Positions 882 through 18,099 of a stretch of DNA of 64,000 nt are shown piece after piece (the stretch's first letter is position 1; the number at the start of each line of letters is the position of its first letter). The stretch is from positions 248,001 to 312,000 of the forward strand of contig PLWS01000002.1 in assembly GCA_003151115.1 (NCBI GenBank). The letters are read 5' to 3'. Under the pieces are notes generated by a model. That model saw only the letters and a list, made by a program, of their open reading frames with translations. It searched no databases and had not been told where the DNA came from. Source of the stretch: Vulcanimicrobiota bacterium (lineage in GTDB: Bacteria > Vulcanimicrobiota > Vulcanimicrobiia > Vulcanimicrobiales > Vulcanimicrobiaceae). Both the position numbers and the translations under genes were made by a program.

Positions 882-914
882 GGGATATATAGTAACCCGG
901 CCCAAACGTCCGGT
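882..914 (+). repeat. Left terminal inverted repeat of the 4-kb element
   Basis: The tip GGGATA (882-887) and the inner core AAACGTCCGGT (904-914) both recur as reverse complements at the right end. The interval between tip and core is imperfect, with one indel. Confidence 0.8.
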
Positions 915-1091
915 TTCTGAGAAACGCGAGGGGTGAGGGGCGCACAGGCGTTAGGTATACCAACGCATCACATCAACGGACTGCTTCGGCGAGCGCACCG
1001 CTTCCAGCAGCGCCCTAAAGGCATTTCCCATATAGCATCTAAAGCAAAACCGCGAGATCTTCCGAACGGTGCGTTATAGGAGGTGCAGCAC

Positions 1092-1808
1092 ATGCGGACT
1101 ACGGTACTCGCAGGAGCGCTCACAGCGGCGTTCTTCACCGCAATCGCGGTGCCGCGCGTAAGTGCGCAAACCTCCGGTTCTCCGGTGGCGATCAACGCGT
1201 GCGGGCCGATATTGGTAGACAACAGTACGCAAACGCTCTTCGGCATCCCGGTGACTTCAACAAGCGGCGGGATTCAAATACAGTTCACCAACGAATCGTC
1301 AAAAACCGCGAACCTGATCAACTTTACCGTCGACTCGAACGGCGATTCCTTTGTCATCCGCGACGTCGGAACGTTCTCGCCGAACATTGAAATCACGCAT
1401 AAGTATAGCAACGGCGCGGGACAAGCATTCGTGCTGCCGGCGCTCGTCGCACCCAAGATTTCGTGTCACGTGCAGTCTGTCGGCTTCACCGACGGGACGA
1501 CATGGCGCCACGGTGATGCGGGGATCTCTCCACCCGCATCCCCAAGCACGCAAGCCCTGAGCGCAACCCCCGCATCCGTGACGATGGATCGCAACGCGGA
1601 ATCACATCTGTTCATGGTTATGGCGGCGGAAGAGGTCGCCGCGTTCACCGAGCGCGACACGTGCGTCCAAATTGCAAACGTGAAGCTCAGCGCATCCGGT
1701 GAAGCAGCGGCTACGTATGTGGTCACACCGATTGTGCCGGGAACGTGTTCCGCCGTCATCCGCGACCAATACGGCCATACCGTGGTGGTGCCGATAACTG
1801 TACGCTGA
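1092..1808 (+). CDS. Secreted protein of unknown function carried by the 4-kb element
   Basis: About 238 residues. I chose ATG 1092 because AGGAGG lies 8 bp upstream; a GTG at 1083 would place the start on top of that site. Residues 1-26 form a signal peptide (hydrophobic LAGALTAAFFTAIA, cleavage after VSA). The mature protein is Thr/Ser-rich with several Cys (NACGPILVDN, KISCHVQS, DTCVQIAN, GTCSAVI) and beta-strand character. A Pro/Ser linker near residue 145 divides it into two probable beta domains, the second Ig-like (TPASVTMD...YVVTPIVPGTC). It probably acts in the periplasm or outside the cell. It is the first gene inside the inserted element and stands alone on its strand. No family recognised. 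Confidence 0.7.
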   Translation: MRTTVLAGALTAAFFTAIAVPRVSAQTSGSPVAINACGPILVDNSTQTLFGIPVTSTSGGIQIQFTNESSKTANLINFTVDSNGDSFVIRDVGTFSPNIEITHKYSNGAGQAFVLPALVAPKISCHVQSVGFTDGTTWRHGDAGISPPASPSTQALSATPASVTMDRNAESHLFMVMAAEEVAAFTERDTCVQIANVKLSASGEAAATYVVTPIVPGTCSAVIRDQYGHTVVVPITVR

Positions 1809-1821
1809 CGCATCGCAAACA

Positions 1822-1852
1822 AAGAGGTCCGCGGCATTGCCGCGAGCCTCTT
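1822..1852 (+). terminator. Possible stem-loop terminator after the secreted-protein gene
   Basis: An imperfect inverted repeat (AAGAGG...CGCGG-loop-CCGCG...CCTCTT) begins 13 bp after the stop codon at 1808. It lacks a strong T tract, so intrinsic termination is uncertain. Confidence 0.35.
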
Positions 1853-2015
1853 GCGTCGAACCCCGTTCGGGCAGCCATCCGCGGCTACGCGAAACGTTTG
1901 CGCATCGCGTGTCACGCGTCTCGCGCCTCACGCCTCGCGCAAGGGACGTCCGGTCGGCTTCGAGCCGAGCGCGCAGCGTCCGGTCGTTCCGGTGCGGGAG
2001 ACTCCTAAATGTATC

Positions 2016-2576
2016 CTAATGGATGTTCAGGGTTCCTCTGTCTCGCGCGATTATTCCACGTAGCTGTGCAATCCGGGCGTTAAGTTTACGCAGATCGTTC
2101 TCCGCGTCGTTCAAGTCTTTTCTTGCTTGTGCAACGTCAATGTCTGCCACATTTAGACTTGATGTTGCGACGGATACGTCCTCGTCCGCAAGGTTCGCAT
2201 CAACCTGTAACTCATTGGCTCTAATCTGGTCGTCGCTTGTTTGCGCCGTTCGCTTCGCGTCATCCGCTGCTGCATGTTTCTGTGCCGCAATAAGCTCCTT
2301 GTCGTTAAGGCTCTGGCGCGTTTTCATCTGCTGAGCCAATGCCTTGGCCATATATGACTTCGCGTTCCGAATCTGCGTTAAGGCACGTGGGTGGTAATAA
2401 TTCACGTCGTTTGAAAGGCGCGTCTGCGAGTCCGACAGTTCTGCGCGCACGTTCGAATAGTATTTGACTCCGTTGCCGTACTGCGTGAGCGAATAGACTA
2501 GTCGGTTTATTTCGGAAATGGACGAGGCACGAAACGAGACCTGTTTGATTTGCCCCGATGAAAGCGGCACGTCCAA
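2016..2576 (-). CDS. Coiled-coil protein of unknown function (possibly 5'-truncated)
   Basis: About 186 residues read from TTG 2576, with no ATG available in this frame. The frame stays open for some 14 further codons upstream, so the N terminus is uncertain and may have been lost. Residues 1-40 look globular. Residues 60-186 are Gln/Ala/Asp/Lys-rich and predicted helical, with heptad-like spacing (ISEINRLVYSL, DVAQARKDLNDAENDLRKL), so a long coiled coil is likely. No signal peptide or membrane segment. It is the only minus-strand gene in the left half of the element and is convergent with the secreted-protein gene at 1092. Function cannot be assigned. Confidence 0.5.
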   Translation of the reverse strand: MDVPLSSGQIKQVSFRASSISEINRLVYSLTQYGNGVKYYSNVRAELSDSQTRLSNDVNYYHPRALTQIRNAKSYMAKALAQQMKTRQSLNDKELIAAQKHAAADDAKRTAQTSDDQIRANELQVDANLADEDVSVATSSLNVADIDVAQARKDLNDAENDLRKLNARIAQLRGIIARDRGTLNIH

Positions 2577-2759
2577 AACAAAACCGCTGCCGTTCAGGTT
2601 GGCTGTCCATGGTTTTCAATCATCTCTAGGGCGACAATTCGGGCACCGTAACAGGCCGCCTTTTCCAAGGGAAATCTCCAGCCCAAGCCCATAAATAATG
2701 TCGAAGTGAGCAATAGCGAGAAACGTATCGTTACTTGGAGCAAATGAAATGATGAGCTC

Positions 2760-3713
2760 ATGCTGATATTTAAATATCTCAGTCCAGAGGGAATTACTCA
2801 CGTGTTTAGGCGCAGGGGAGAAGTGAGTTTACGATTTGCGCTACCGCGGGATTACAACGATCCCTATGAGTTATTTCTGCAGACCGATAAGCCATTACGC
2901 TCGAAAAAGCACCGCGCGTTCTATAAGTACTTTCTTGGCAAGATTAAACAGTTTCCGGTGACATGCTTCTCGAAACGCCCCGATTCCGTCGCGATGTGGG
3001 CCCACTATGGCAGGGATGCCGCCGGAGTATGCCTCGCTTTCGATGAAGATGACTTGGCGGATAAGTTTCCGAGTGCATTTGTGGGCGATGTTAAGTACCT
3101 GGAAGGCCCCGCGCAGATTCCTGCGTGGAAGGTTGTGTATGCGTACACCACGGAAAAGAATCGACACAGCGAATGGCTCTTGAACGACGCTTACGGCCTC
3201 GCTTATTTCGCGAAGCGTTCTGAGTGGCAATATGAATCCGAACGTCGTCTAATCGTGGACCCAAAGGCGTTGAAACATTCAAATGGCATCTTGCTGGCCA
3301 AATTACCCAGGCGTGTGCTGCGCTACATTATTGTTGGACCACAGGCGCAAGATAGCATCAGGCAGCTTTGCCGGAGACGCGCCAGCGAGTATCGCGTCCC
3401 GCTCCTTGAGCTTAGAATTGGCAAGACCCGCTACAAGCCGTTTTTTTCGACCGCTTCAGGTGACGTAATGACTTGGAACGTGAAAGGCTTCAGAAAATCG
3501 TCTGAGGTTTGTATCAGCTGCGGTGAGCCCGCTAGGGTAAATGCGGGTGCTCTTTGCCGTTGGTGCGCCATTGAACCATCGGAGGTTGCCGAAGCAGCAA
3601 CCCGTTCATTGATGACCATAGCCTTAGATTTAGGCGTCACGAGTTTGGTGGAAGTCGGGTTCACCGGAGCCAAGCAAAAAGGTTGGCGTGTAAGGCGGGC
3701 GCGTCGCTCGTAA
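2760..3713 (+). CDS. DUF2971 family protein with C-terminal zinc knuckle
   Basis: 317 residues from ATG 2760. The N-terminal 230 residues carry DUF2971 hallmarks: LPRDYNDPYE near 30, then CFSKRPDSVAMWAHYGR with a downstream AFDEDD near 75-100, and WQYESERRLI near 160. The last 80 residues add a C-x2-C...C-x2-C cluster (CISCGE ... CRWC, near 257-275), probably a zinc knuckle, and a basic tail (RVRRARRS). No membrane segment, so cytoplasmic. DUF2971 has no settled biochemical role that I can state with confidence. Here it is cargo of the inserted element, just upstream of the left GCGCAT array. The zinc knuckle and basic tail would suit nucleic-acid binding, which is inference. Confidence 0.75.
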   Translation: MLIFKYLSPEGITHVFRRRGEVSLRFALPRDYNDPYELFLQTDKPLRSKKHRAFYKYFLGKIKQFPVTCFSKRPDSVAMWAHYGRDAAGVCLAFDEDDLADKFPSAFVGDVKYLEGPAQIPAWKVVYAYTTEKNRHSEWLLNDAYGLAYFAKRSEWQYESERRLIVDPKALKHSNGILLAKLPRRVLRYIIVGPQAQDSIRQLCRRRASEYRVPLLELRIGKTRYKPFFSTASGDVMTWNVKGFRKSSEVCISCGEPARVNAGALCRWCAIEPSEVAEAATRSLMTIALDLGVTSLVEVGFTGAKQKGWRVRRARRS

Positions 3714-3732
3714 GATTGTTAGAAATCGTTAG

Positions 3733-3914
3733 CACATAGCGCATAGCGCATCATGCATTGCGCATCGGCGCACGCCCATTGCGCATCGGCACAGCGCATT
3801 GCGCATCGGCCGCGTTGCGCATTGGCACCACGCATTGCGCATCGGCGCATAGCGCATCGGTGCATTGCCGGATTGCGCATCGGCGCACCGCGCATCGGTG
3901 CATTGCGCAACGGG
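3733..3914 (+). repeat. Left GCGCAT-rich direct-repeat array of the 4-kb element
   Basis: About ten degenerate units of roughly 18-21 bp built on CATTGCGCATCGG. The exact string ATTGCGCATCGG occurs five times. TGCGCA is palindromic, so each unit is a small dyad. The array opens with ATAGCGCATCATGCA (3743-3757), which is repeated at the start of the right array (4650-4664) in the same orientation. There is no convincing gene on either strand. Confidence 0.8.
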
Positions 3915-3936
3915 ATAGCGGTTAGCGAATCTTAAA

Positions 3937-4668
3937 TCAATGTCGCCAAGGATTAGAGATCACTTGGCCTTCAATCACAATGCAATAGAGATCGTCCCAG
4001 GTACGTTGCCAGCGCCATCCCTTGGACGTGCCCGGCGCATTATGCTCTATCCAGCTTGTTGCCACTATAGCCGATAGGGTCGTTTTGCATTTTGGGCACC
4101 TCGGCTCGCCTGCGGCAGTAAATCGTCCTCCGCACCCGCACGGTTCCAAATATGGTTCAACACCGCTTGTTATTCGCTTGAAACGTACGAAGGGTGCTCC
4201 GTTTGGTCGCGGGGCATAGTCATCGAGAATTGCGGTGCAACCACAGGAGTCGCAGTATGCGTAAGAACTATCGTTGAAGCCGCTATGTACTAAGTAATAA
4301 GAAAAGCGGCTGTTGCAGTGCTCGCAAACGCCGAGACCGTCTTCTCTCCGTATACGTTGTTCAGGCCCTTCATACTTATGAAGAGCCCAATTCGCCCCTT
4401 GTGCCTGTAAACTCCACAGGTCAGATTCTGCATTTTCTTTCACCTTACGCCGTTTTTGTGTTAAAACCTCAATCCAATGTAACCCCTTCCGAAAGACTCT
4501 CTGAATGCTCTCAAAGTTTTCGCTAAAAGTTCGCACAGGGGAAATCTTTTGGCCGGGCAACGCCGTTTTTCCGCTCAACGTGACCAAATCAGGGGTTTGC
4601 TCCTCCAGACCTACTAGACACACCCAGTACCGGGAGCGGCACATCATACATAGCGCATCATGCACCAT
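3937..4668 (-). CDS. Zinc-ribbon protein lying between two repeat arrays
   Basis: About 243 residues if read from the ATG at 4668. The frame is open to 4803, but the extra N terminus is only translated repeat (MRNAP units), so the true start is uncertain and may be further in. The body contains four Cys clusters: CEHC, CDSCGC, CGCGG and CPKC. These are consistent with two zinc ribbons around residues 120-220. It also has a basic linker and an aromatic C terminus (GWRWQRTWDDLYC). No signal peptide or membrane segment, so it may be a nucleic-acid-binding or adaptor protein. It is embedded in the transposase-less element, with direct-repeat arrays on both sides. Family not recognised. Confidence 0.6.
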   Translation of the reverse strand: MVHDALCMMCRSRYWVCLVGLEEQTPDLVTLSGKTALPGQKISPVRTFSENFESIQRVFRKGLHWIEVLTQKRRKVKENAESDLWSLQAQGANWALHKYEGPEQRIRREDGLGVCEHCNSRFSYYLVHSGFNDSSYAYCDSCGCTAILDDYAPRPNGAPFVRFKRITSGVEPYLEPCGCGGRFTAAGEPRCPKCKTTLSAIVATSWIEHNAPGTSKGWRWQRTWDDLYCIVIEGQVISNPWRH

Positions 4669-4864
4669 TGCATTGCGCATCGGTGCATTGCGCATCGGCG
4701 GCATCGGCATCGGTGCATTGCGCATGGGCGCGTTGCGCATCGACGCATAGCGCATCGACGCATTGCGCATCGGCAGCGGCATCGGCAGCATCGCATTACG
4801 CATTGCGCAACCCGCTTAGCGCATAGCGTAGCGCATTGCGCAAACGACGCATTGCGCATCGGGG
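4650..4864 (+). repeat. Right GCGCAT-rich direct-repeat array of the 4-kb element
   Basis: Same unit and orientation as the array at 3733-3914, with ATTGCGCATCGG four times plus many variants. It opens with the same 15-mer, ATAGCGCATCATGCA. It runs up to the right inverted terminal repeat, so the units are subterminal on this side only. On the minus strand the array is open in the frame of the zinc-ribbon gene, which obscures that gene's start. Confidence 0.8.
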
Positions 4865-4896
4865 ACCGGACGTTTTGCGCGCTTGTGTATTATCCC
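4865..4896 (-). repeat. Right terminal inverted repeat of the 4-kb element
   Basis: Read on the minus strand it starts GGGATA and reaches AAACGTCCGGT after 21 bp, mirroring the left end at 882-914. Confidence 0.8.
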
Positions 4897-4910
4897 TCGG
4901 CAAATCCGAG
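4897..4910. repeat. 14-bp target-site duplication, right copy
   Basis: Identical to 868-881 (TCGGCAAATCCGAG) and directly abuts the right terminal repeat. Confidence 0.85.
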
Positions 4911-5414
4911 CGAGGCCATCAAGCATTGGTTCGCAACGACGCCGTCGACGGTGCGGCCTGCGTCCTCCGGATGCGCGGTGGCGTGCATCTTCACGCCGTC
5001 GGCGATTGCCTGGGCGATCTGCGGCATCGGCATGAGCTGCTTAAACGAATCGGCTTCCAAACCGCCGCCGTCGCCGGCGCCGTGATCGACCAGCTCGATC
5101 CATGTTTGCTTCGCGCCCACGCGCTGAGCGTTGTCGAGCGTGCGCGCGACGAACCGCGCGAGATTTTCAGGCGAAGCCATGTCGTCCGGTGAGCGCGTCG
5201 TCCCGTCGAGCGTTTGGCATCCATCTTGAATCGTCGCGCGCTGCGTGCCCGCGCGAGATGTGTCTTCGACCGTGAACTGGATCGCCGTGTCCTCTGCGCT
5301 CGTGATTCGCGCCTGGCGAATCACCGCGCTTTGTGATTGATCGAGGTTGTTATCGCCGTCGCGGTAGATTCCGAATTCCAAAGCTCGCGGCGGATTGCAC
5401 CTAACTGGTTCCAA
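4897..5414 (-). pseudogene. Clostripain-like (C11) cysteine peptidase, 5' half
   Basis: The half encodes about 170 native residues before entering the element, where GGGATAA adds one residue and a stop. It keeps the family landmarks: RDGDNNLDQSQ near residue 18-28, the catalytic His in VDHGAGDGGG (about His111) and the nucleophile in NQCLMAS (about Cys164). The insertion falls only a few residues after that Cys. The start used is TTG 5414, with GGAGG about 9 bp upstream. A terminator-like hairpin sits right there, so the original N terminus with a signal peptide may already have been lost. The 3' half is at 189-881. Confidence 0.8.
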
Positions 5415-7003: not shown

Positions 7004-7711
7004 TTACTCCGGTTCGACGGCGATTGGGCCGCTGACGGTGTGCAAAGTCATTGAAGATGTGGCTTTCCCGATGCGTCCCGTGGCGGAATTTCCGACCATG
7101 CCTTGATGGCTGTCCGAAGGGAAGAAGAGATCGACCGAGCCGCTGAGCGTGCTCGCGTCGACGTGCGCGTCACTGTTGCGCGCGATGTGCACGGTAATGC
7201 GCCCGCTGATCGCGGTGAGGTGAATGCGCCGCGTTCCGGTGAGGCGTCCGAGCGTGGCGTCAAGCCTGCCGCTGACTTCGTTTGCATCCACGTCGCCGGC
7301 GAGTCCGGTAAGGGTTGTCGGTCCGCTGACGTTGGTCACCGAAACCGAAACCGTTTTGGGAACGCGAATGGTATAATCCACTTCGCCCCCGTTTTGATTT
7401 CCGAAGAAGCCGCTGCGGTCGTATTCCGTCTTGATCACGATCTCCGAACCGTTGCGGTTCGCGACGACGTGCGTCCGGCCGACCGCGGCTTGATCGGCGC
7501 CGTAAATCACGGCGCTCACGTCAACGTTCGGGCGATCCCATGCGGTGACCTCAATCGTCCCCGCGACGTTCGTGATGCTCGTTTGGGTAACACCGGAAGC
7601 CGCCAGCGCGCTGTGATACCGCACCTGGACGTTGTGGCTTCCCAGCGATGTTGCATCGATGCAGCCCGCTAGTGACAGCGCGCCCAACAATGCAAACCAC
7701 CGTGGTCTCAT
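7004..7711 (-). CDS. DUF4097-type beta-strand-repeat lipoprotein
   Basis: About 235 residues from ATG 7711, preceded by AGGA 8 bp upstream; an ATG at 7732 adds only a charged leader. The lipoprotein signal ends at LSLAGC. The mature part is a succession of short beta strands with repeating patterns such as VEVTAWDRPN, VSVTNVSGPTTLTGL and LSGSVDLFFPS. These are typical of DUF4097/DUF2807 beta-solenoid proteins, whose substrates are unknown. It probably sits at the envelope. It is first in an operon with the GH18-like lipoprotein. Confidence 0.75.
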   Translation of the reverse strand: MRPRWFALLGALSLAGCIDATSLGSHNVQVRYHSALAASGVTQTSITNVAGTIEVTAWDRPNVDVSAVIYGADQAAVGRTHVVANRNGSEIVIKTEYDRSGFFGNQNGGEVDYTIRVPKTVSVSVTNVSGPTTLTGLAGDVDANEVSGRLDATLGRLTGTRRIHLTAISGRITVHIARNSDAHVDASTLSGSVDLFFPSDSHQGMVGNSATGRIGKATSSMTLHTVSGPIAVEPE

Positions 7712-7783
7712 AGACCGTTTCCTACGACACATAGAAGGTTTAACCGCTCTCTTGCTAAGCGAGTTTCACTAACTTTTAGAGAG

Positions 7784-8620
7784 TTAGCCTGTGGGGCACT
7801 GCTTGAGCTTCGTCGAGCCGCCCGGCGTTGTATGATCGATGACATACTGCACGAGGGCGGGCTCGCTCTGTCCCGAGGGCGGGAATTGGAATAGCGCTGT
7901 TTTCGCAGTGGTTATTCTAAACGGGTCGACCGAACTCGACGCATAGAACCACGGGTAATCCAGATCGATGCTCTGAGCGGTACCGTCGGGGAAGCGCACC
8001 GTCATCGATATGTGCTCCCAGATGCGGCCGCTGGAGCTGTCGGTGGTCGGCTGATCGTAAGGAATGAAATCGACGTAGCCGCACGGCTCGTGTGCCGCCG
8101 GCGCGCCGCCCGTGCCCGTGCCCGTTCCGCTCTCGCCCGTTCCCGTGCCCCCGGTTCCAACGCCGCCGGTTACGGCTTTGGCCGTTTTGCTGCTCCCCAA
8201 GCCTTGCCCGCCGGTCGGATGATGGACGAGAGCCGGTGCTTTATGATATTTCGTGCGCACCAGCGGCTGCGCCGATGCGACGCGCCGGATGTGCTGATTT
8301 TCCGATGGTTTTCCGGGGTTGATGACCTTCGGCTGCACGTTGGTGGGAGCGACGACGTGCGCGTGGACGATCGGCTTGGGCGAGGGCGTGGGCTTATGCT
8401 CGATGCGCACGATCTTGGCGATCGTGATGGTCTCGGGCTGTTCGGGCGGGATGGTCGACTGCCGCCATGGGACCAGTTGAGCCAGCACCATCTCCAGGGC
8501 CAAGGCAGCGGCAAAGGCCATCACCAGCCGCTGGCGGTGATCCTCTTGGGCGAGGAGTGAAAATGGCTGCGCAGGCGCGGGGGCTTCCCGCGCGTGCTTG
8601 CCCTTGGCCGTCTGATTCAT
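7784..8620 (-). CDS. TonB-like membrane-anchored protein
   Basis: 278 residues. A cytoplasmic N terminus of about 32 residues is followed by one membrane helix (about 33-50, LVMAFAAALALEMVLAQLV). Then comes a Pro/Lys-rich periplasmic stretch (about 58-110) like the rigid linker of TonB, and a Gly/Thr-rich segment (GTGGTGTGESGTGTG). The C-terminal domain has a Cys pair (HEPCGYVDF ... KLKQCPTG). The sequence does not show the classical TonB C-terminal YP motif clearly, so a TonB-like energy transducer for the receptors in this window is only a possibility. It is divergent from apt. Confidence 0.55.
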   Translation of the reverse strand: MNQTAKGKHAREAPAPAQPFSLLAQEDHRQRLVMAFAAALALEMVLAQLVPWRQSTIPPEQPETITIAKIVRIEHKPTPSPKPIVHAHVVAPTNVQPKVINPGKPSENQHIRRVASAQPLVRTKYHKAPALVHHPTGGQGLGSSKTAKAVTGGVGTGGTGTGESGTGTGTGGAPAAHEPCGYVDFIPYDQPTTDSSSGRIWEHISMTVRFPDGTAQSIDLDYPWFYASSSVDPFRITTAKTALFQFPPSGQSEPALVQYVIDHTTPGGSTKLKQCPTG

Positions 8621-8666
8621 GGATAGTCCAAGCTTAGATCATCCCCACGAACAACGGAAAGGCCGC

Positions 8667-9209
8667 ATGCCCCGGCTCGCGGAAAGCCCGTGCTCCGTGG
8701 AGATTCAGAGCTATATCCGAGACATCCCCGATTTCCCGTTGCCCGGGATCCTGTTCCGTGACATTACCCCACTGCTCAAGGACAAGCAAGCCTTCAAGGC
8801 GGCGATCGATCTCTTTGTCGACAAATACAAGCAGGCGGAAATCAATCACGTCGTGGGCATCGAGGCGCGCGGATACATGCTCGGCGCGCCGCTGGCCTAC
8901 GCGATCGGCGCCGGCTTCGTCCCGGTGCGCAAGCCCGGCAAATTGCCCTTCAGCAAGCTCAGTGAGTCCTACGCGCTCGAGTACGGCACCAACTCGCTCG
9001 AGATCCACGCCGACGCGCTCGGCGACGGCGACCGCGTGCTGGTCGTGGACGATCTGCTCGCAACCGGCGGAACGGCGGCGGCAACGCGCCGCTTGCTCGA
9101 ACGGTTGGGCGCAAAAGTCGCCGGCTTCGCCTTTTTGATCGAGCTCGAAGCCCTCAAAGGGCGAGACGCTTTGCAAGGCGCCGACGTTACCTCGTTCATC
9201 ACGTACTAA
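8667..9209 (+). CDS. apt: Adenine phosphoribosyltransferase
   Basis: 180 residues from ATG 8667, with GGAAAGG just upstream; the in-frame ATG at 8619 overlaps the divergent TonB-like gene start. The enzyme converts adenine and PRPP to AMP and pyrophosphate (purine salvage, cytoplasm). Diagnostic features are SYIRDIPDFPLPGILFRDIT at the N terminus, GIEARGYMLG, PVRKPGKLP and the PRPP-binding loop VLVVDDLLATGGTA near residue 125-138. Length is normal for the family. It is followed 1 bp later by a secreted-protein gene and then by rel. An apt-rel neighbourhood is common and links purine salvage with (p)ppGpp metabolism. Confidence 0.95.
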   Translation: MPRLAESPCSVEIQSYIRDIPDFPLPGILFRDITPLLKDKQAFKAAIDLFVDKYKQAEINHVVGIEARGYMLGAPLAYAIGAGFVPVRKPGKLPFSKLSESYALEYGTNSLEIHADALGDGDRVLVVDDLLATGGTAAATRRLLERLGAKVAGFAFLIELEALKGRDALQGADVTSFITY

Positions 9210-9210
9210 C

Positions 9211-9681
9211 ATGAAACGCAGCCTGATTTTTCTCGCTTTCGCCGCGGGCGTGGCGCTCTTGCCTGTGACCCCCACGCGCGCGCAAAGCGTGCAACCTTCG
9301 CCATCGCCCGCGCCGTCCGCCGCAGTCCCGGCGCTGCCGGCCGACAATGCGCCGCCGCCGCTGCCTTCGCCCAAACCGGCCAAGGAAGATCCGAAAATCC
9401 GCAAGCTCGCCGTGCAGCAGTTCCTTGCATGGCAAGGCGGTGCGGTCGACCGCACCCGTTACTCCGACGACGTCAACGCCCAGTTGAGCGACGACGTATT
9501 GGACGCCTCGGAAAAAGCACTGGCGGCCATGGGCGCGCTGCAGAGCGCGACCTTTAAAGGCATCAGCGAGGCGAAGGGCATCCACGTCTACGTTTACACG
9601 ATGACCTGCGAACACGGCAGCATCGACATGAAGTTCGCGCTCCAGCCCGACGGCAAGATCGCGCTCGTCTTTTTCACCTAG
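9211..9681 (+). CDS. Small secreted protein of unknown function
   Basis: 156 residues. The signal peptide covers 1-24 (LIFLAFAAGVALLPVTPTRA, cleavage at RA-Q). A Pro/Ala/Ser linker (about 26-60) leads to a globular C-terminal domain of about 95 residues (KIRKLAVQQFLAWQGGAVD ... LQPDGKIALVFFT). The fold resembles small NTF2-like or DUF3887-like periplasmic domains, but the match is by eye only. It starts 1 bp after the apt stop, so it is co-transcribed with apt and probably rel. Confidence 0.7.
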   Translation: MKRSLIFLAFAAGVALLPVTPTRAQSVQPSPSPAPSAAVPALPADNAPPPLPSPKPAKEDPKIRKLAVQQFLAWQGGAVDRTRYSDDVNAQLSDDVLDASEKALAAMGALQSATFKGISEAKGIHVYVYTMTCEHGSIDMKFALQPDGKIALVFFT

Positions 9682-17037: not shown

Positions 17038-18099
17038 GTGCTTAAGATTATTATTCGAGTCTCTTCGGCTATCTTGGCGATACTGTTTCTCGGCGATGCT
17101 ACATCGGGCGCTACGGAGTCGCCAGTAGATCTCTACAACGCGGCCATAAAAAATATGGCGGCTCTGCCAGAGCCGCCATATGTCGTCTATCGGCTTGAGG
17201 GAAAACCCGCTAGCGCCATACGGCCGCTCCAGGTCAAACTCCGAGTCAATGACAAGCTGGTTTGGTTGGATGGGGATGCCAGCAACGCTAACACGACATG
17301 GTTCGTGGTCCATCGTACAAGCGACTTCACAAGCGCGATCCTCGACGAGAATAAACATCAATATGTCTCGAATCGTTCGTTTTTCGATCCGACTTGGTAT
17401 GGTGCGTATCATGCATTGCATGATGGAATGTTTTTCCTCTATCCTTTTTTCTCAGATCATCAACCAAAACCGCAGCCCATCCCGACTCCGGAACCGTCGA
17501 TTACGGGCGGCCCGAAAACGATAACATCAGTTACGGTTCCGGCGCCGGGCCTTTACAAGGTTCAAGGCACCGGCAGTACGACCAGATCTGCAGTCGCTTC
17601 GGGTAGACAAATGCCATCGCCGGCGCCTGCGCCAATTCAGACCCCTCTAGCCAGCAACTTGAAGACGATCGCGTTTATCAATGTGATGGGGCCAGGGATA
17701 TATAATATTCAAGACCGCGGTGCCGCAGGGTGTTCCAATGGCGATCCGGCGCGAGCGCTGCACCTGACCGCGCGCACATCGCCTGAAAAACATCAGTTAA
17801 GCGACGTGCTGATAGATCTAAATTTCATGCGCTTCTGCATGGTGCGGTTCATCGCACCTGGCAACGCGCAACGCATTGTCGAGTTTCACTACGCTATGGT
17901 CGCAGGTTTTTGGATGCAGACCGACGGAGTGGTAGCAGTGACGTGGCGGGAGCGCGTGTTACCGGATCTGGGGCCACGTGAACCAGGGATGGTCGTTCTG
18001 CGCGAAAAGCCCGAACTGGAGCGACGCTATTGGATTTATCAGCTTGTTATAATCAGCTATCCGACAACCGTGCCTGACAGCGTGTTCGACGCTCCGTAA
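17038..18099 (+). CDS. Secreted protein of unknown function
   Basis: 353 residues from GTG 17038. The N-terminal signal peptide is about 24 residues (RVSSAILAILFLGDATSG). Residues 28-140 form one domain (DLYNAAIKNMAALPEPPYVV ... WYGAYHALHDGMFF). A Pro/Thr-rich linker (about 145-210) leads to a second domain with a Cys pair (GAAGCSNGD, MRFCMVRF) and a conserved-looking end (ELERRYWIYQLVIISYP). Probably periplasmic or exported. It is the first gene after ssb, bracketed by repeat copies R1 and R2. I do not recognise the family. Confidence 0.65.
   Translation: MLKIIIRVSSAILAILFLGDATSGATESPVDLYNAAIKNMAALPEPPYVVYRLEGKPASAIRPLQVKLRVNDKLVWLDGDASNANTTWFVVHRTSDFTSAILDENKHQYVSNRSFFDPTWYGAYHALHDGMFFLYPFFSDHQPKPQPIPTPEPSITGGPKTITSVTVPAPGLYKVQGTGSTTRSAVASGRQMPSPAPAPIQTPLASNLKTIAFINVMGPGIYNIQDRGAAGCSNGDPARALHLTARTSPEKHQLSDVLIDLNFMRFCMVRFIAPGNAQRIVEFHYAMVAGFWMQTDGVVAVTWRERVLPDLGPREPGMVVLREKPELERRYWIYQLVIISYPTTVPDSVFDAP

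Follow-up and report, generated by a model that had tools for sequence, protein, structure and literature searches.

A probable non-autonomous casposon derivative carrying cargo genes in Eremiobacterota

Casposons are mobile elements whose integrase, the casposase, is related to the Cas1 of CRISPR systems, and casposases have been proposed as the source from which the enzyme of CRISPR adaptation evolved. Family 2 casposons encode Cas1, PolB, an HNH protein and two HTH proteins, with HTH fused to PolB, whereas the bacterial family 3 is marked by its own Cas1 clade. A 2016 study of M. mazei reportedly recorded solo casposon ends. The M. mazei casposon MetMaz-C1 has an end published as GGGATATAGGTAACTCAAAAAAACGCAACGC, with ends that read GGGATATAGGTAACTC..., and a 14-bp duplication (PMC10359463); the published median for casposon target-site duplications is 15 bp (PMC4046053). 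Such ends serve as substrates for casposase integration in vitro, and mini-casposons without cas1 move with proteins supplied by the chromosome (PMC6977970, PMC10359463), as was found in vivo for the mini-casposon pRS1520 in the presence of a chromosomal casposon (PMC10359463).

The window analysed here is a 64,000-nucleotide stretch of a Vulcanimicrobiota genome, referred to here as Candidatus Eremiobacterota, and contains an element of about 4 kb. This element and its relatives resemble MetMaz-C1 (M. mazei, family 2) in their tip (GGGATATA), their 14-bp duplication and their site-specific and tandem insertion. In contrast to MetMaz-C1, the window element has neither Cas1 nor PolB, and it is inserted within a protein-coding gene rather than in a tRNA gene or at the 3' end of a gene. 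It shares with the engineered pRS1520 (PMC10359463) an arrangement of casposon ends and duplications around unrelated cargo, but pRS1520 is man-made and carries antibiotic markers, whereas the window element is natural and carries genes of its own. As in MITEs and other bacterial non-autonomous transposons, there is no transposase and the ends are presumably recognised by an enzyme encoded elsewhere; classical MITEs, however, depend on IS-type transposases, whereas the enzyme here would be an integrase of the Cas1 family. A partial literature search returned no description of natural, cargo-bearing casposons that lack Cas1, and no report of casposons in Eremiobacterota.

Boundaries, host gene and cargo of the window element

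The window element occupies positions 882–4896, starting with GGGATA... at 882 and stopping with ...TATCCC at 4896. Its features and those of the interrupted gene are as follows (window coordinates, strand, description).

189–881, minus: C-terminal part of the interrupted caspase-like host gene (LGFADALSHAG...), from comparison with relatives
868–881, no strand: left 14-bp direct repeat TCGGCAAATCCGAG, abutting the left tip of the element
882–915, plus: left terminal end GGGATATATAGTAACCCGGCCCAAACGTCCGGTT, with a ATATATCCC-type tip as in the resident casposon
1083–1808, plus: predicted secreted protein, 241 aa; stretches of its DNA match several relatives
2016–2576, minus: coiled-coil protein, 186 aa; weak match to phrog_17519
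2760–3713, plus: DUF2971 protein, 317 aa; PF11185 (E=3e-9), PADLOC PDC-S31 (E=5e-22), phrog_1762 (E=3e-29)
3735–3914, no strand: GCGCATTGCGCATCGG-type array of short repeats, as found subterminally in the resident casposon
3937–4803, minus: zinc-ribbon protein; a broken copy lies near the left end of the resident casposon
4479–4785, minus: segment with 77% identity to the resident casposon's left subterminal region (L083:969-1304)
4637–4862, no strand: second repeat array, GCGCAT-type, adjoining the right end
4864–4896, plus: right terminal end GACCGGACGTTTTGCGCGCTTGTGTATTATCCC, from end alignment and profile
4897–4910, no strand: right 14-bp direct repeat TCGGCAAATCCGAG, abutting the right tip of the element
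4897–5414, minus: N-terminal part of the interrupted host gene (...VDHGAG...NQCLMASLGFAE), from comparison with relatives

The two ends contain an inverted 11-bp core, AAACGTCCGGT at 904–914 and ACCGGACGTTT at 4865–4875. When the whole window was searched with up to 1 mismatch allowed, TCGGCAAATCCGAG was found at 868–881 and 4897–4910 only, and a perfect 14-mer placed exactly at both predicted boundaries has a chance probability of about 4^-14. The ends, inverted core and perfect direct repeat described in the initial annotation are thus correct to the base. So is its claim that the host gene becomes whole on excision: once the element and one repeat copy are removed, the frame is open for 414 codons from stop to stop, and the rejoined protein is 82.7% identical over 392 aa to that of the uninterrupted gene in a genome of the same genus (G005, L135). 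In G005 the flanking DNA is collinear on both sides of the empty site, and the junction is likewise intact in another genome of the genus (G006, L134), which provides a second empty site. Because two close relatives have empty sites and the host gene is restored, the insertion is real. We call this gene caspase-like from its HG and QC motifs only, since the PF03415 clostripain model found no match in this genome.

The cargo comprises four proteins. The DNA of the secreted-protein gene was probably captured from a host, because stretches of it match several relatives. The DUF2971 protein belongs by its matches to a PADLOC candidate defence family (PDC-S31) and a phage family (phrog_1762). The true start of the zinc-ribbon gene is probably further in than that of the listed ORF, whose first 40 or so codons cross the repeat array. 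Elsewhere in the class this gene was found only in G050, apart from the broken copy in the resident casposon. The G050 homologue (L225, G050:C52:151175-151588) is 58% identical to the window protein and lies about 45 kb from the casposon of that genome, with no ends detected nearby.

Searches of Pfam, NCBIfam, PADLOC and PHROG gave no recombinase or transposase match among the cargo proteins, in agreement with the initial reading that none of them is a recognisable mobilising enzyme, and Rfam gave no match. The element contains no Cas1 in any frame, no B-family DNA polymerase and no trace of cas1 or polB remnants. As these two defining genes were tested for and are absent, the window element is not a casposon in the strict sense.

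Casposons in the same genome and across the class

The initial annotation missed that the ends and the 14-bp duplication are of casposon type. The left end of the window element (GGGATATATAGTAACCCGGCCCAAACGTCCGGT) resembles that of MetMaz-C1, and both of its terminal inverted repeats match end model R1 and the ends of a resident casposon. A search of the window's own genome with an exact-spacing pattern (3 mismatches) overlooked the other copies, since the ends differ in their middle part; these copies were recovered by BLAST and an end profile. In an alignment of 21 Eremiobacterota ends, the ACCGGACGTT core and the TATCCC tip hardly vary. The ends, whose other copies were sought in this genome and its relatives, occur at 4 separate places in the window's own genome and in 29 of the 117 genomes of the class; most matches to the end pattern are from Candidatus Eremiobacterota.

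Searching this genome and its relatives with the element and its ends identified a 16.5-kb element with the same ends, on the same contig but outside the window, about 113 kb downstream of the window element (L083:792-17287; G000:C6:366291-382786). It is flanked by its own perfect 14-bp duplication, GCAAGAAGATTCTC, which differs from that of the window element, and its own insertion site is a different one, close to the 3' end of a small gene. It encodes the only Cas1 found in the genome (Pfam E=1.1e-34), for which the best PDB match is the M. mazei casposase 6opm (E=2e-18), ahead of CRISPR Cas1 entries and with the active-site region aligned. A B-family-like polymerase (best PHROG match DNA polymerase, 6e-14), a DnaQ-like exonuclease, a type IIG restriction enzyme and a TetR regulator are also encoded. 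With Cas1, PolB, inverted ends and duplication all present together, this element is a casposon.

The PolB of the resident casposon lies in two overlapping frames (L083:9440-10357 and 7444-9456), whereas it is a single long frame in G018, G050 and G076. It may be broken or naturally split, and the resident copy may be impaired; its present-day activity is uncertain on account of the split. The terminal motif ACCGGACGTTTTGCG of this casposon is repeated inwards, at spacings of 35, 53 and 53 bp on the left (L083:792-966) and 53 bp on the right (17202-17287), like iterated, putative integrase-binding sites.

Ends also lie at two further loci in this genome. At L084:5173-5254 (G000:C6:633205-633220) two ends stand face to face, 14 bp apart (TAGGCAAATCCGGC), and no outer ends were detected out to 20 kb; at L184 (G000:C5:291188) there is one unpaired end. 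It is possible that these are solo ends or remnants.

Complete elements that encode Cas1 were also found in relatives. G018 has two complete tandem elements of 15.3 and 15.8 kb with Cas1 and perfect 14-bp duplications, G076 has one of 15.3 kb with Cas1 and a perfect 14-bp duplication, and G024 has one of 6.4 kb with the same attributes in which no PolB was found. The complete 18.7-kb element of G050, also with a perfect 14-bp duplication, has one internal stop in its Cas1 match. Like casposons, the full Eremiobacterota elements encode Cas1, a PolB-like protein and two more conserved small proteins, a core common to L083, G018, G050 and G076. The G018 PolB has an HTH match at its C-terminus; the presumed HNH and HTH proteins of the Eremiobacterota casposons had no Pfam match.

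Cas1 was found in 20 of the 29 genomes with ends and in 3 of the 88 without (Fisher p=8e-13, a figure inflated by shared ancestry), counting a second, more distant Cas1 lineage. The 9 genomes with ends but without a Cas1 match at 1e-20 are suggestive only, as drafts may lack contigs. The second Cas1 lineage is well separated, about 30% identical and encoded by ORFs of 500–680 aa (L099, L100, L101, L209-L213 and L218-L220, several of them in end-bearing genomes) and perhaps represents another lineage of casposons. The Cas1 tree includes a single known casposase, on a long branch.

Mobilisation and origin of the window element

The window element and the resident casposon share more than their tips. 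A subterminal stretch of about 300 bp is 77% identical between them over 339 aligned columns and in the casposon includes the broken zinc-ribbon gene copy, and GCGCATTGCGCATCGG-type repeat arrays adjoin the ends in both. The left end of the window element is of the ATATATCCC subtype, as in L083, and its right end is of the TGTATTATCCC subtype, as in other genomes of the genus. Because the two ends differ in subtype, the element could possibly be a hybrid of two casposon ends.

We consider it very probable that the window element is a non-autonomous, or satellite, casposon derivative that was moved in trans with its cargo. The initial annotation had offered movement in trans as one of two explanations, and it is strongly supported by the complete casposon some 113 kb away, which encodes Cas1 and matches the window element in its ends and in the length of its duplication. 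Such a satellite would keep both of the terminal sequences recognised by the casposase, together with passenger genes, and would lack integrase and polymerase. Cas1 would act in trans on the window ends, with the casposase of the resident casposon or of a close relative as the most likely mover. The casposase would have joined the two 3' ends of the element to two target strands 14 bp apart, and gap repair after joining would have produced the 14-bp duplication. Although PolB is split in the resident casposon, casposase alone integrates ends in vitro in published work. Since only the left end is of the resident subtype, another, now absent, casposon may instead have been the mover. The element itself would have arisen from full casposons by internal loss or by the joining of two casposons' ends.

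The second explanation in the initial annotation was that a cargo protein belongs to an unrecognised mobilisation system. Two of the cargo proteins do have no confident family assignment, and one of them could in principle be a recombinase that moves the element. However, none of the four is found intact in other complete elements with the same ends, and the zinc-ribbon gene is limited to one other genome of the class (G050) and is broken in the resident casposon. A cargo recombinase is therefore highly improbable, and the proposal is both unsupported and unneeded given a mobiliser, the Cas1 casposon, elsewhere in the genome. Still less credence can be given to a conventional IS, or a transposon of some other, unknown type, with a 14-bp duplication and no relation to casposons. 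In favour of this reading, no transposase lies inside the element, and fourteen base pairs is long for a classical IS duplication. Against it, Cas1/PolB elements here and in several other genomes are bounded by the same ends and by duplications of the same length. We rule out a classical IS origin because the element has no transposase and its ends are those of Cas1/PolB elements.

The same structure could also arise if an autonomous casposon inserted at this site and then lost cas1, polB and most other genes in place, leaving a decayed remnant. Decay of this kind has a clear product in a 6.8-kb element of G048, with a perfect duplication and a Cas1 reduced to its last 70 aa, and it would fit the solo or unpaired ends in the window's own genome (C5:291188). 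However, the window element retains nothing of cas1 or polB, all four of its reading frames are open, its ends are of different subtypes and its duplication is perfect, so that the insertion is not old. We regard decay in place as unlikely. The window element resembles a non-autonomous casposon and probably functions as one.

It has a counterpart in G062, where an 8.7-kb element (L201:8676-17362) has ends and perfect duplications but neither Cas1 nor PolB. This element stands in tandem before another end, and a Cas1 gene (G062:C18:21395-22741) lies about 4 kb past that end. An apparent 955-bp element in G009 (L089:11451-12405) was dropped because its far repeat does not adjoin an end.

A fixed target site and its implications

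According to the literature, casposons insert in tRNA genes, at the 3' end of aEF-2, in a small number of further protein genes or at intergenic sites (PMC4046053, PMC6563490). Among 50 distinct ends in our set, 15 face another end across 14 bp and thus form tandem arrays. In 21 of the 35 remaining outer flanks, from 17 genomes, CATCAGGCATTG (with up to 3 mismatches) was found outside the duplication at a distance of exactly 6 bp; no other offset was seen, and the rate in shuffled flanks was 0.6%. Translation of the flanks in the window and G018 shows that CATCAGGCATTG encodes QCLM of the caspase-like gene and that the duplication covers the next conserved codons, (L/M)GFA(D/E). The G018 tandem casposons sit inside the same caspase-like gene as the window element, and the host gene of G050 is interrupted at the same codons. 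In G018 three identical 14-bp copies of ATGGGTTTCGCAGA separate and flank the tandem casposons (L127/L128; G018:C6:282978-314072).

Most insertions fall in the same codons of one caspase-like gene, often as tandem arrays, and this constant target position follows directly downstream of the codons presumed to encode the catalytic cysteine. Insertion within a gene, at the same codon position in several genera, amounts to a distinct target preference.

Taken more broadly, the evidence leans towards a natural Eremiobacterota population of cargo-bearing satellite casposons that lack Cas1 and ride on resident casposons. Its members would accumulate as CRISPR-like tandem arrays at a single codon position in a caspase-like gene and would ferry candidate defence genes as well as genes captured from hosts. 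The cargo would matter to the host. Such elements would also show that casposons transport cargo genes, a candidate defence gene among them, in a phylum that has been little studied. A key step in the casposase-to-CRISPR scenario is the repeated insertion by Cas1, at one site, of DNA that does not encode Cas1. Natural Cas1-less and full casposons in arrays spaced by identical 14-bp units come close to that intermediate, and the Eremiobacterota casposons offer a bacterial setting for testing it.
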